From assembly GCF_000970305.1 (NCBI RefSeq), contig NZ_CP009517.1:2852001-2916000 (forward strand): a stretch of 64,000 nucleotides of DNA, written 5' to 3'. A program made the position numbers and the translations under genes. Numbering within the stretch: the first letter of the stretch is position 1; the number at the start of each line of letters is the position of its first letter. This stretch comes from Methanosarcina barkeri 3. GTDB lineage: Archaea; Halobacteriota; Methanosarcinia; Methanosarcinales; Methanosarcinaceae. The notes under the pieces were generated by a model. The model made no database searches. It was not told the DNA's origin and saw only the letters and a list, made by a program, of their open reading frames with translations. Positions 21,527 through 26,788 of the stretch are shown piece by piece.

Positions 21527-23029
21527 ATGGTAGAAAGTGAAGATATAACTATCGAAGAATTAAGCACGGAAAATACACGGGAGGATGTAAAGGGTATGGT
21601 CAGGAAGCTTTCCGAAAACGAGTGGGAGATTCCTGTCGAGCACATCCCGAACATGCGAGTTCCGGGCCGTCTGTTTGTATCCGAAAGTTTGCTTGAAGGC
21701 ATTGAACCAGGGACTATTGACCAGATTGCAAATGTATCAACCCTCCCTGGCATTCAGAAGTACTCCATGGCAATGCCTGATGCTCATCTTGGCTATGGCT
21801 TTGCTATAGGAGGAGTTGCCGCTTTTGATGTAGAAGAAGGGATTATTAGCCCTGGTGGGGTTGGTTTTGATATCAACTGCGGAGTAAGGCTTATTCGCAC
21901 TAACCTTCAGAAAGAAGAGGTAGTTCCGAATATAAAGAGATTAACTGACGAACTTTTTAGTAATGTACCTGCAGGTGTTGGTTCCAAAAGCCGACTCCGA
22001 GCATCGGACAAGGAACTGGACAGTGCTTTTCTTGAGGGAGCAAGATGGGCTGTAGAAGCCGGATATGGCGTAGAGGCTGACTTTGAGCACTGTGAGGCAA
22101 ACGGATATATGGAAGGAGCTGACCCTTCCCAGGTAAGCACAAAAGCCAGAAATAGAGGAAAACCTCAGTTAGGAACTCTTGGAAGTGGCAACCATTTTCT
22201 TGAGGTTCAGTATGTTGATAAAATCTATGATCAGGAGATAGCATCAACCTTTGGGCTTCAAGAAGGTCAGGTTACGGTAATGGTTCACTGCGGGTCAAGG
22301 GGTGCAGGACACCAGATCTGTACTGACCATCTGAAGGAACTCTCTCAGGCCGTAAAGAACTATAAAATTGAGATTCCGGACAAACAACTTGCCTGTGCCC
22401 CTGCCCAGTCAAAGGAAGCCCAGAACTATTTTAAAGCTATGCTCTGTGCTGCAAATTATGCATGGGCAAACCGTCAGATAATAACTCACTGGACAAGAGA
22501 ATCGTTTGAAAAAGTATTTGGGAGAGATGCTGACGACCTGGGCATGGATCTGCTTTATGACGTTGCTCACAACGTAGCAAAACTTGAGAAACATATCGTG
22601 GACGGCAGGAAAAAAGAGGTATACGTGCACAGGAAAGGAGCAACAAGAGCCTTTCCTTCAGGGCATCCCGAAGTCCCGGCCGTGTATAGGGATGTAGGTC
22701 AGCCGGTACTGATTCCTGGAAGCATGGGAACTCCTTCATTTATATTGTGTGGTTCAGAAGAATCAATGAATATTTCTTTTGGTAGTGCCTGTCATGGGGC
22801 TGGCAGGGTCATGAGCAGAGCACATGCAAAGAAAGAATTTCGCGGACAGAGCATAAAAGAAAACCTTGAAGCTCGGGGCATTACAGTAAGAGCTACCCAT
22901 CCTTCAGTCATTGCAGAGGAAGCTCCGGATGTATACAAGTCCAGTAGCAAAGTGGTAAATGTCGTACACGAACTCGGCATTGCTCGTAAGGTCGCAAAAG
23001 TTCTTCCTCTAGGGGTTACAAAAGGCTAA
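21527..23029 (+). CDS. rtcB: tRNA-splicing RNA ligase RtcB
   Basis: GTP- and Mn2+-dependent ligase that joins 2',3'-cyclic phosphate and 5'-hydroxyl RNA ends, sealing tRNA exons after intron removal. The 500-residue chain contains the family blocks MPDAHLGYGFAIGGVAAFD, GFDINCGVRLIRTNL (metal-binding cysteine), LGSGNHFLEVQ, HCGSRGAGHQI and YVHRKGATRAFP, the last carrying the histidine that becomes guanylylated in the family. There is no intein, although some archaeal RtcB genes carry one. The N-terminal extension of about 25 acidic residues is longer than in many homologues. The ATG at 21527 has GGGAG eight bases upstream. Confidence 0.97.
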   Translation: MVESEDITIEELSTENTREDVKGMVRKLSENEWEIPVEHIPNMRVPGRLFVSESLLEGIEPGTIDQIANVSTLPGIQKYSMAMPDAHLGYGFAIGGVAAFDVEEGIISPGGVGFDINCGVRLIRTNLQKEEVVPNIKRLTDELFSNVPAGVGSKSRLRASDKELDSAFLEGARWAVEAGYGVEADFEHCEANGYMEGADPSQVSTKARNRGKPQLGTLGSGNHFLEVQYVDKIYDQEIASTFGLQEGQVTVMVHCGSRGAGHQICTDHLKELSQAVKNYKIEIPDKQLACAPAQSKEAQNYFKAMLCAANYAWANRQIITHWTRESFEKVFGRDADDLGMDLLYDVAHNVAKLEKHIVDGRKKEVYVHRKGATRAFPSGHPEVPAVYRDVGQPVLIPGSMGTPSFILCGSEESMNISFGSACHGAGRVMSRAHAKKEFRGQSIKENLEARGITVRATHPSVIAEEAPDVYKSSSKVVNVVHELGIARKVAKVLPLGVTKG

Positions 23030-23320: not shown

Positions 23321-24433
23321 TTATTTGGATTCTTCCGTTGACTCCATCAAATATAAATTTGAATTGTCAGATTCTTGTCCCTGGAAGAATCGGAACACAA
23401 TCATGCTTGAATACGAAAGTGTCTCGAAAGGCGTGCCATTTTCGAGGAATATGTTTGAAAAATATTTAATAAGATTACGAATAACCCTTTCGTCTTTGAA
23501 GTCATGGAAAATAGTTACTGATTCATTTCCAGGTTCAAGGGAAATTTCTATATTTTTTACAAGCTGGGTTGAAAGATACATTTTTCGGAACTGGACCAGC
23601 AAATCAGGAAGAGTCATGTCACTTACCGACTGCTTGCAAAGGCGCTCAAGAATTTTTGTCGGGTTTGGGACTTCGCCAGTTGCAAAAATTTCAAACTGGC
23701 TCCGGTGAAGAGTCACGAGATTGAATCTCTCAGCATTATAGGTGTACATGAGCTGAGTCCAGAATTCAGTATTATCGTCCAATTCCTTACATAAAATATC
23801 AAGATATCCAAAATGCTTCCGGATTCCGGGCATTATCTCGTTCGATGAGATAGAAGTGTTTCTTTTGAAAGAAATCTGAGTCGAGTTTGATCTCCTGAAA
23901 ACGTGCTCAACGTCAAGCTGTTTCCATCTGGAAAGGAAATGAGCCACCAACTGGGCAAAAAAGTCTCTACTATGGACGGTCGAATTGGAAATAAGTACCA
24001 GTGCAGACTCAGGGTTATTTATATCTTCGCACTTTATGGAAGTTCGAATTACCCATTGATAACTTCTAGAAACTCTGTTGAGATAATCTTCAAGTTGTTT
24101 CATATTCTGAATCTCAAACGGATTGATAAGCTCATTAACAAGCTCCTCATCCGTAAGCCTGCCCCTGGTACACCTGAACAGCCATTCAAGCATCGTTTTA
24201 TTTATAACGATATTTTCTCCGTTCTGGATAGTCTCGTTTAATTCTTCTTTCGCAGGGGTTTCTTTTAAGAATCGGATTGCTTCATCAATACTTTTATGAT
24301 ATAAGAGAGCCGTATCCGAAACTTCAATGGTATCCCTGACTGCAGCACTCAAATTCCCGTTATTGGCATCCAGAAGGGGCTGTAACTTTTTAAGGTATTT
24401 ATCATCCAGGGAAATGTTCTTTCTGATTAGCAT
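23321..24433 (-). CDS. Hypothetical protein with ribbon-helix-helix-like N-terminus
   Basis: Not recognised beyond its N-terminus. Residues 1-40 (ISLDDKYLKKLQPLLDA, then LSAAVRDTIEVSD) fit a ribbon-helix-helix DNA-binding fold: a short strand followed by two helices. The remaining 330 residues are a mixed alpha/beta region with no cysteine motif, transmembrane segment or catalytic signature that I can name. It may be a lineage-restricted regulator. The promoter region on its upstream side leads into the unexplained structured RNA locus at 24.9 kb. ATG at 24433. Confidence 0.75.
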   Translation of the reverse strand: MLIRKNISLDDKYLKKLQPLLDANNGNLSAAVRDTIEVSDTALLYHKSIDEAIRFLKETPAKEELNETIQNGENIVINKTMLEWLFRCTRGRLTDEELVNELINPFEIQNMKQLEDYLNRVSRSYQWVIRTSIKCEDINNPESALVLISNSTVHSRDFFAQLVAHFLSRWKQLDVEHVFRRSNSTQISFKRNTSISSNEIMPGIRKHFGYLDILCKELDDNTEFWTQLMYTYNAERFNLVTLHRSQFEIFATGEVPNPTKILERLCKQSVSDMTLPDLLVQFRKMYLSTQLVKNIEISLEPGNESVTIFHDFKDERVIRNLIKYFSNIFLENGTPFETLSYSSMIVFRFFQGQESDNSNLYLMESTEESK

Positions 24434-24853
24434 ATTTTCACCCGATAAATCCGGTTTCCTGGCTATTTATGCTATGATCCGTTTTGATGCCCGTAAAATC
24501 AGGACTTTTTGTGGTTTCTGGTTGACGTTTAGAAAAACATTTTTTCTAAAGAAGTAAACCGCGAATCCTAAAAGTTCTTATTTAGAGCTCTAGTTATGGT
24601 ACTGGTAAGTGCTACCGAATATTAAATCTTTCTATTTATTACTACTCTTTGATGATTAGGATTAAAAGATGTTCCATCCAAAGTCCCAATTAATTAAAAT
24701 ATAATACAATATTGGCATACCTACGAATTCCATAGAATTGTCTGATGTATATTTTTGTATACTATCCTACTTTTGAAACTTAGTTAAATTTTTATAGCGT
24801 TGAGCTAAAGACTTGACAAACAACCAGAAACGAATGGCACGGGTTCACAACAC
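24434..24853. other. Intergenic region upstream of the structured RNA locus
   Basis: No gene is supported. It should hold the promoter of the ribbon-helix-helix-like gene (minus strand). Base composition is AT-rich until the TATA element at 24854. Confidence 0.5.
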
Positions 24854-24882
24854 TTTATATATATATGTACAGAGAGTGTACA
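24854..24882 (+). promoter_or_regulatory. Strong TATA element with adjoining palindrome
   Basis: TTTATATATATA (24854-24865) is a near-ideal archaeal TATA box. It runs directly into a 6-bp inverted repeat, TGTACA-5-TGTACA (24866-24871 and 24877-24882), placed where a regulator could block initiation. A start of transcription at about 24884-24890 is expected from usual archaeal spacing. No regulator is identified. Confidence 0.65.
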
Positions 24883-24884
24883 AT

Positions 24885-25240
24885 ATGTAAATAAGAAACA
24901 TTGGGATGTAAGTCGGACTGCTATAACCTGGAAGATCGCATTATTGATTTCACCCTATCCTTACAGTTTGTATAACCTTCCATTATTTACCCTAATTTAA
25001 TTTCAAGGGCATAGGTTGACATGTTCAAAATCCGTGAGTTTCTTAGTAGATTGTATAGATCCTGCTCAAGTACAGGGTAAAAACTCACAGGTTATTACAA
25101 TTGTCCTGAAAACTCACAATCTTCAGAGGCGATAACGGTCCCAAAAAGCGAGTTTGGGAGTGGATTAATAAGTACCTGGCAGGTTCCAACGGACTATCTA
25201 GCCAGCCAGGGACTTTTCTCCTGAAGAAAGACAAAACTTT
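24885..25240 (+). ncRNA. Candidate structured non-coding RNA of unknown class
   Basis: This block is richer in GC than its flanks, follows a strong TATA box and ends near a T-rich run at 25237. It contains these stems: TGTAAG 24907-24912 with CTTACA 24960-24965; ATAACCT 24972-24978 with AGGTTAT 25089-25095, which encloses GTGAGTTT 25034-25041 with AAACTCAC 25081-25088, which itself encloses ATCCTG 25059-25064 with CAGGGT 25073-25078; CTGAA 25106-25110 with TTCAG 25122-25126; TCCCAAA 25139-25145 with TTTGGGA 25153-25159; CTGGC 25176-25180 with GCCAG 25201-25205. A G-U pair in the third stem fits only the plus strand. A second ATAACCT at 24922-24928 could compete for the same partner. No known RNA family is recognised. 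Longer frames here are broken by stops. Confidence 0.6.
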
Positions 25241-25837: not shown

Positions 25838-26788
25838 TTATGTCAGCTTGGTTACCGGGTGGTTTGCCAGGTCTGCGATCTCTACACCAATTTCTTTTGC
25901 AGTTTCACCGAGCATAATGTCAACCATTGCAACAGCTGGGAAAATCTGGTTAACATTCTCGATCGGACCGTAGAGCAGGTAGTCGGAACCTGCAATCTGA
26001 GCTACCAGGTTAGTACCAATGTCTGCAGGCATGTAGATTGCCTTGGGGTCAGGCTGGGTTTTCTTGAACTTGCGGAGCCAGTCCCATGCAGAAGCCATGT
26101 TGTGGTATCCACCACCGATCGGCAATCCGAACTTTGCTTTCAGTGTGGGTATTGAACGGATTGTTGCACCTGAGCCTGCACCGAGGGGCATGGCTGCAAC
26201 ATCGATAATTGGATACTTTATTCCACATTCTTTTGCGACCTGGAGCATACCCTTGGTCTGTCCAGAACCGCCTACTTCAAGGATATCAACCTTTCCTTTT
26301 ACGGTAGGGTCAGTTGCGTTGAAGGCAAGGACGATTGCAGCTGATACGTCGCTTTCTGTGAGGATATCGATTTCTTCCTGTTCAATACTTGCATTGATCG
26401 AGTTGTGGATTGCCCTGTCTGCAACACCTATTTCGGTACAGTGCTGAGCTGCGGCTGCACGCACATTTCCGGCTGAAGAGTCAATCAGGAAAGGTGTCCT
26501 GTCGTCAATCTCAATGAACCAATCAATATAGCGCTTGATCGCTTCAGGGGTTTCCCCTACAATCTGGTTTACATAAGGGAGCCCTGTGGCATCGCTCAGT
26601 GAAACCTGAGTATTCCAGAGGGTTTCTGCAGCTGCTCTGTCGAAGATACCCTTGTCTTCATCGGTCACAATCTTGTGCCTTGCATAGAACATAGTACTGA
26701 CTAACACGGTTGGGTTTTCACCCGGCTGTCCGCCGAATTTAACTCCGCCGATTTCAAAAACTTCCTGTTTCTTGTCAAACTTGAACAT
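25838..26788 (-). CDS. mtrH: Tetrahydromethanopterin S-methyltransferase subunit H
   Basis: Catalyses transfer of the methyl group from methyl-tetrahydrosarcinapterin to the cobalt of the corrinoid on MtrA, the first half-reaction of the Mtr complex. At 316 residues it is a soluble TIM-barrel of the pterin-dependent methyltransferase type. Visible segments include FKFDKKQEVFEIGGVKFGGQ, TPFLIDSSAGNVRAAAA, VGGSGQTKGMLQ and PLGAGSGATIRSIPTLK. It has no membrane segment, as expected for the peripheral subunit. GAGGG lies about six bases before the ATG. It is the last gene of the operon and is followed by a hairpin terminator. Confidence 0.98.
   Translation of the reverse strand: MFKFDKKQEVFEIGGVKFGGQPGENPTVLVSTMFYARHKIVTDEDKGIFDRAAAETLWNTQVSLSDATGLPYVNQIVGETPEAIKRYIDWFIEIDDRTPFLIDSSAGNVRAAAAQHCTEIGVADRAIHNSINASIEQEEIDILTESDVSAAIVLAFNATDPTVKGKVDILEVGGSGQTKGMLQVAKECGIKYPIIDVAAMPLGAGSGATIRSIPTLKAKFGLPIGGGYHNMASAWDWLRKFKKTQPDPKAIYMPADIGTNLVAQIAGSDYLLYGPIENVNQIFPAVAMVDIMLGETAKEIGVEIADLANHPVTKLT

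Follow-up and report, generated by a model that had tools for sequence, protein, structure and literature searches.

Gene setting and promoter

The window analysed here is a 64,000-nt stretch of DNA from a genome consisting of a single contig of 4.56 Mb (G000, the genome under study). Within it, a gap of 1.4 kb extends from the start of an RHH-like gene (24433) to the end of mtrH (25838), and the open reading frames in this gap include no plausible protein gene. The first-pass annotation had proposed that the gap is not empty and that it holds an unannotated, plus-strand structured RNA with its own promoter. Both proposals are supported: the gap contains a conserved promoter and an RNA block that is conserved beyond this strain. 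Judged from the sequence, the locus is a structured non-coding RNA gene beside mtrH with a promoter of its own (Table 1). Frequent indels that are not multiples of three, together with a 1-nt change in the length of the core described below, argue against a small protein gene. The block had also been described as having a higher GC content; its G+C content is indeed approximately 0.34 to 0.47 versus approximately 0.25 outside, but the rise is modest and covers most of the block only. mtrH lies downstream in 24 of 27 loci, and the sequence of the other 3 (L016 to L018) stops short of the mtrH position. Since the next gene downstream of the RNA is the convergent mtrH, the RNA is not placed as a cis-riboswitch leader would be. 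The RHH-like gene on the other side matches no Pfam family above cut-off; a gene for RtcB RNA ligase (window 21527-23029) converges on this conserved neighbour.

The TATA box noted in the first pass is real, has a TTCACAA element just upstream, and is conserved together with that element in the 27 aligned copies. The combination of the two has a single exact match genome-wide, i.e., a search of the genome for other genes with this promoter gave none that was exact. From the usual archaeal spacing, transcription of the long RNA is expected to start near 24885-24887; the ends of the predicted RNA of approximately 340 nt are based on the promoter and on a 3' hairpin with a U-run. By contrast, the TGTACA-N5-TGTACA palindrome that had been joined to the TATA box is confined to L001-L003, which are the genome under study and its 2 closest relatives. 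Other copies read TGTTAA or TGTAA, and the element is probably not functional as a palindrome.

Table 1. Features of the RNA locus and its neighbours (window positions).
Feature	Positions	Strand	Remarks
RHH-like gene	23321..24433	-	divergent neighbour; syntenic in every locus tested
TTCACAA upstream promoter element	24844..24850	+	identical in 27/27 aligned Methanosarcina copies and in three sister-genus copies
TATA box region	24854..24867	+	kept across the genus; altered form in the sister genus
TGTACA palindrome of the first-pass annotation	24867..24882	+	left half in L001-L003 only
Predicted RNA, ~340 nt	24886..25225	+	block kept in 28 Methanosarcina genomes; where mtrH can be read, the two are convergent
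P1 5' strand (GGACUG, UAU, CCU, GAAGAUCG)	24915..24938	+	long closing helix
P2 arm	24960..25038	+	CUUACAGUUU 24960-24969/25029-25038; UAACCU 24973-24978/25013-25018
P3 arm	25050..25101	+	AUUGUA 25050-25055/25096-25101; CCUG 25061-25064/CAGG 25088-25091; AGU 25069-25071/ACU 25083-25085
P1 3' strand	25117..25141	+	support as for the P1 5' strand
Core AGCGAGUUUGGGAGUGG, 17 nt	25147..25163	+	complementary to type-1 sRNA
P4 3' hairpin GUACCUGGC/GCCAGGGAC, then UUUU	25172..25213	+	94.1% standard pairs in 27 sequences
mtrH	25838..26788	-	convergent neighbour; open frame

Conservation in Methanosarcina and beyond

The RNA region was matched at the DNA level in 27 of the 31 Methanosarcina genomes, and a model recovered it in one further genome, so that the comparison suggested in the first pass places the locus in 28 of 31 genomes. 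The alignment has 2 conserved blocks, one comprising the promoter and 5' leader and the other positions 25147-25215, while the sequence from the end of the RNA towards mtrH is not conserved. The search beyond the genus used a covariance model (R1) built from the 3' domain of the long RNA. It located the RNA in the same position in 3 genomes of a sister genus (G036, G037, and G038), whose copies retain the TTCACAA element and a core of the form AGCG(A/G)GUUUGGGAGUGGAUUC. Weak model matches in 2 other genomes (G084 and G067) were not on the mtrH contig and were taken as chance. A pattern scan of genome contigs also gave matches in many bacteria, in numbers close to the chance expectation; only those in Methanosarcina are considered real.

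One genome that is 99% complete (G022) has no long RNA, and its mtrH and RHH-like genes are only approximately 450 bp apart. Going by this arrangement, G022 is a natural deletion of the whole RNA gene in which the neighbouring genes have been kept. As the RNA is missing from G022, it is not essential in every setting. Several species of another genus, g11, have directly 3' of mtrH a hairpin that is much shorter and contains a GGUUGGGGAGUGG-like sequence; it may be a minimal relative of the long RNA. We limit the claim to a possible relationship because the core-like sequence varies and does not follow the sRNA variants in detail (G090). In these g11 hairpins (L183, L185, L189, L193, L194, and L195), the sequence resembles GCNGGUU(G)GGGAGUGG, and a T-run comes after a conserved CCTNCGGCTC.

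A search with all 4227 Rfam families at the gathering score returned a single match in the window, a tRNA elsewhere, and none at the locus, in agreement with the initial remark that no SRP, RNase P, box C/D or riboswitch signature was recognisable. In a permissive search of the RNA region, the best E value was at least 3.8, far under gathering scores, and the related loci and partner hairpins described below are likewise without an Rfam match. Among the papers covered by a literature search, none dealt with the RNA locus or with a Methanosarcina sRNA sponge.

Fold of the long RNA

For the fold, the Methanosarcina copies were treated as group A (barkeri-like, 18 sequences) and group B (acetivorans/mazei, 9 sequences in the fold tests). 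Both follow a common plan, in which a leader precedes a closing helix, P1, that encloses 2 inner arms, P2 and P3, and is followed by the core and by a 3' hairpin with U-run, P4. P1 has 94.7% standard pairs in the 18 group A sequences, with 2 double-change pairs, and the analogous helix of group B has 92.6-96.7%, depending on the segment. The 2 helices of P2 reach 87.6% and 87.7% in group A; a group B homologue, CUCACaGUUU/AAAUgGUGAG, came out of unsupervised folding with 95.6%. In P3, the CCUG/CAGG helix is well kept in group A (94.4%) and AGU/ACU is weak (64.8%), and the version in group B is longer and has 3 double-change pairs. P4 likewise has 3 double-change pairs, and its covariation score in 27 sequences exceeds those of all 500 shuffles; with the UUUU that follows, it is a probable terminator.

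As a whole, the group B consensus fold has 96.2% standard pairs, a percentage inflated by the derivation of the fold from the same sequences, and 8 double-change pairs, compared with a mean of 2.9 in shuffles, none of which (0/500) reaches 8. The revised fold of group A has 90.1% standard pairs and 6 double-change pairs versus 4.6 in shuffles; in a column-preserving simulation on the tree, its percentage paired is above all 1000 nulls and its covariation gives p = 0.03, for helices that were partly picked by eye. A blind all-pairs covariation scan against a tree-based null, with probably low power, yielded no significant pair. The covariation check proposed in the first pass is answered in part, with double changes in the named helices of group B and in P4, weaker support in group A, and nothing significant in the blind scan. 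In several helices (the 8 pairs of group B, and P4), changes in the relatives are compensated. The folding energy of the single sequence is not unusual for either the plus strand (z = -0.97, with 19 of 100 shuffles as good) or the minus strand (z = -1.26). G-U pairs outnumber A-C mismatches in group B (67 versus 11), which favours the plus strand as the RNA, but group A has a ratio of only 73 versus 56.

The 3 nested stems of the first-pass annotation do have complementary arms where it placed them, but they are not supported as the conserved fold, with 81.6% standard pairs in group A versus 90.1% for the revised structure. The tree simulation does not separate the 2 folds, because the earlier stems pass it as well (p < 0.001 for canonical pairs and p = 0.04 for covariation); compensation beyond controls was not found for them in group A. 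Since they share bases with both P2 and P3, they are alternatives to these arms. An ATAACCT copy at 24922-24928, formerly seen as a replacement arm, sits within the conserved closing helix P1. Two features had been missed, namely the stretch with the highest conservation (25147-25167) and the 3' hairpin at 25172-25213.

The conserved core and its proposed type-1 partner

Conservation of the RNA is highest in the core, which hardly varies among 31 copies and has been kept in the sister genus. It is G-rich and located between P1 and P4, and its GGGAGUGGAUU resembles a ribosome-binding site, but in the genome under study no start codon is found at the usual distance from it. In predicted folds, the core is only partly open (mean unpaired probability approximately 0.45). 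An alifold pairing of the core with TTCACAA was rejected, since TTCACAA precedes the expected start of transcription. In one copy (L176), the 5' leader contains UUGGGAUGUGGAUU, similar to the core UUGGGAGUGGAUU with an additional U; this makes an imperfect direct repeat that flanks P1, possibly by chance.

When the genomes were searched for the core motif outside the RNA locus, intergenic hairpins turned up in several genera. The pattern search gave, per Methanosarcina genome, the core and usually one other intergenic site, with near-zero counts for reversed-pattern controls. In the genome under study, this other site, which we call type 1, is at G000:C1:24272-24285 (near 24.2-24.3 kb), outside the window and unlinked to the RNA locus, and carries AGCGAGUUUGGGAGUGG exactly. 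Its conserved block, on the opposite strand, consists of TTTAGAAAAGTATATATAAAAC (BRE and TATA box), a spacer of approximately 24 nt, and a hairpin GAACGGGCGAG...AACCCCCCACUCCCAAACUCGCUCGUUC, and conservation stops past the far end of the hairpin. With the orientation taken from this promoter conservation, the simplest reading of type 1 is a minus-strand hairpin RNA of approximately 62 nt whose loop is C-rich and whose first base is at the foot of the stem. The long RNA and type 1 would then come from opposite strands of the motif and therefore be complementary over 17 nt. G022 keeps the type-1 sRNA, with a 3' arm that reads GAACGGACGAG instead of the otherwise constant GAACGAGCGAG; as it is retained where the long RNA is gone, the sRNA should have other work. 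In G001, the RNA locus lies at about 326.1-326.5 kb and type 1 at about 5721.8 kb; in G008, type 1 lies at about 23.4 kb. One genome has a second, diverged type-1-like hairpin (L374, G019:C304:9741).

Complementarity between the two RNAs

The core complements the loop and 3' arm of the type-1 hairpin, perfectly over 17 bp in the genome under study. For a genome of this size, simple arithmetic puts the chance expectation of a given 17-mer at approximately 5 in 10,000. With G-U pairs allowed, the complementarity is unbroken over 16-17 bp in 28 of the 30 genomes in which both partners were read, and the core variants AGUGAG and AGCGGG retain pairing via G-U. The exceptions are G017, which loses the terminal pair, and G024, which has one internal, uncompensated A-C mismatch. 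The core of group B is one U short, and the expectation that its type-1 hairpin should be one A short was fixed before testing. Long cores go with long partners in 20 of 30 genomes (17 of group A and 3 of the sister genus) and short with short in the 10 of group B, whose partners stay matched because both lack the same single nucleotide. This matched 1-nt change is one coordinated evolutionary event on one branch and no more.

Duplexes between own partners have mean energies of -32.7 and -31.5 kcal/mol versus approximately -28 for swapped partners, i.e., a swap between the groups costs approximately 4 kcal/mol. For the full RNA and the type-1 sRNA of the same genome, the binding energy is calculated at -15.1 kcal/mol; among 318 other window stretches, the mean is -0.3 (sd 1.0, minimum -7.0) kcal/mol. 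Binding falls to 0.0 when the core is scrambled and to a mean of -0.8 kcal/mol when the loop of the sRNA is shuffled. Strong binding (mean -8.5, down to -23.6 kcal/mol) is seen for sRNAs shuffled over their whole length with the composition unchanged, because shuffling destroys their own fold as well. Composition alone can thus bind so long an RNA strongly, so that the energy by itself is unconvincing, and it is position and conservation that convince. In the predicted complex, P1 remains closed and the core is drawn from a local hairpin, UCCCAAA/UUUGGGA. Pairing in trans between the long RNA and the type-1 sRNA is well supported by sequence. What the sequences show directly is a conserved and syntenic locus, a large part of its fold, a partner hairpin with a conserved promoter of its own, and the matched complementarity.

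A search for mRNA targets with the complement GAATCCACTCCC gave matches mostly within coding regions. One candidate, porB, was rejected; it has extended complementarity in 4 genomes, but its duplex (-22.9) is equalled by unrelated window stretches (to -25.1). The complementarity of the porB coding stretch (L226-L229) covers GGGAGUGGAU(U)CAU as well as a portion of P4.

Possible functions of the RNA pair

With a probability that we put at roughly 55%, the long RNA is non-coding, stable and structured, and acts as a decoy (sponge) that titrates the type-1 sRNA from other targets. A decoy is favoured because the core resembles a ribosome-binding site without having a start codon at the usual distance. 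An RNA of approximately 340 nt would be made from its own promoter and present the core between P1 and the terminator hairpin; the core would pair with the type-1 sRNA along its exposed, C-rich loop and the 3' arm of the stem next to it, unzip the hairpin and occupy the loop, and in this way draw the sRNA away from its other targets. Three points are inferred here: transcription of both RNAs in the sense given, an encounter between them in the cell, and titration of the short one by the long one, not the reverse. The wider proposal, a dedicated archaeal sRNA sponge beside the mtr operon in most Methanosarcina and the sister genus that has co-evolved in trans with its cognate sRNA, is put forward tentatively, at somewhat less than even odds.

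The main rival reverses the direction of control, with the type-1 sRNA binding the core so as to destabilise the long RNA or block a protein site, and the long RNA serving a function of its own. The same complementarity would serve, and the structure of the long RNA is more elaborate than a simple decoy needs; we nevertheless consider this unlikely, given that the sRNA is kept in G022 without the long RNA, and hence has other work, and that the core looks like a ribosome-binding site, as that of a decoy would. Less likely again is that the 2 loci do not pair at all and one protein recognises the motif at both, as DNA or, if both are read in the G-rich sense, as RNA. The related GGGAGUGG hairpins, present in several copies across the family, are what a protein-binding element would look like, and a T-rich tract comes after the type-1 hairpin when this is read in the G-rich sense. 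The conservation at type 1, however, takes the form of a promoter reading into the C-rich strand and ends at the far end of the hairpin, which puts the 2 loci on opposite strands of the motif.

The convergent arrangement with mtrH at every judgeable locus would suit a cis element, with the mtr operon insulated or down-regulated by the plus-strand transcript together with its 3' hairpin, but the RNA ends approximately 600 nt before mtrH without overlap, and it is the core and promoter that are conserved and not the space towards mtrH, making such a role improbable. We give the least credence of all to a riboswitch-like or two-state RNA. Alternative pairings that share P2/P3 bases do exist, as the first-pass annotation saw when it suggested a two-state switch, and approximately 82% of them are kept in group A, but nothing shows switching: these stems are without compensation beyond controls, and downstream on the plus strand there is no gene to control.

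Bacterial sRNA sponges and target mimics are separate transcripts in which a short conserved site complements the active region of a conserved sRNA that acts in trans. The predicted Methanosarcina RNA would share the separate transcript and the conserved site complementary to a conserved sRNA, but it is much larger, independently structured, and archaeal, and its decoy action is a proposal. C-rich loops suit ribosome-binding sites. To our knowledge, few archaeal sRNAs have known partners. In Methanosarcina mazei, sRNA41 and sRNA154 have been reported to mask mRNA ribosome-binding sites (PMC5867862). The type-1 partner, also intergenic and from Methanosarcina, has an exposed C-rich loop suited to masking such sites, whereas the long RNA is the G-rich partner and not a C-rich regulator. 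M. mazei sRNA162 is likewise an archaeal sRNA, with distinct target-binding domains; its reported target, the MM2441-MM2440 mRNA, is a different one (PMC3510493).

A sponge, if true, could link methanogenesis to genes regulated by an sRNA with a C-rich loop, and a regulatory circuit in which either of the 2 RNAs captures the other would be unusual among archaea. The pair is concrete and occurs in methanogens that are genetically tractable; the site involved is defined to exactly 17 nt, and G022 offers a natural deletion to compare with. Beyond this pair, the results point to hairpin RNAs with C-rich loops across the family that Rfam does not include, identity with named M. mazei sRNAs aside.

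Related hairpins elsewhere

Type-2 hairpin RNAs (G000:C1:3570133, comprising L321 and L333; L312, L329, and L332) are near-identical in 4 Methanosarcina genomes. They have a GUGAGCGGG stem, 2 CCACUCCCC blocks in the loop and a TATA box reading into the C-rich strand, adjoin an MFS-type transporter gene, and have no Rfam match. Type-3 hairpins (G000:C1:691191, comprising L320 and L335; L325, L323, L292, and L305), with several copies in G036 of the sister genus, have stems resembling GGGCAUC...GAUGCCC and carry the GGGAGUGG motif one to three times. In genus g11 (L260-L289), GGTTGGGGAGTGG or a close variant occurs in 27 of 27 genomes, with reversed-pattern controls near zero, and mostly within intergenic hairpins that have GAGCGGG/CCCGCTC stems.
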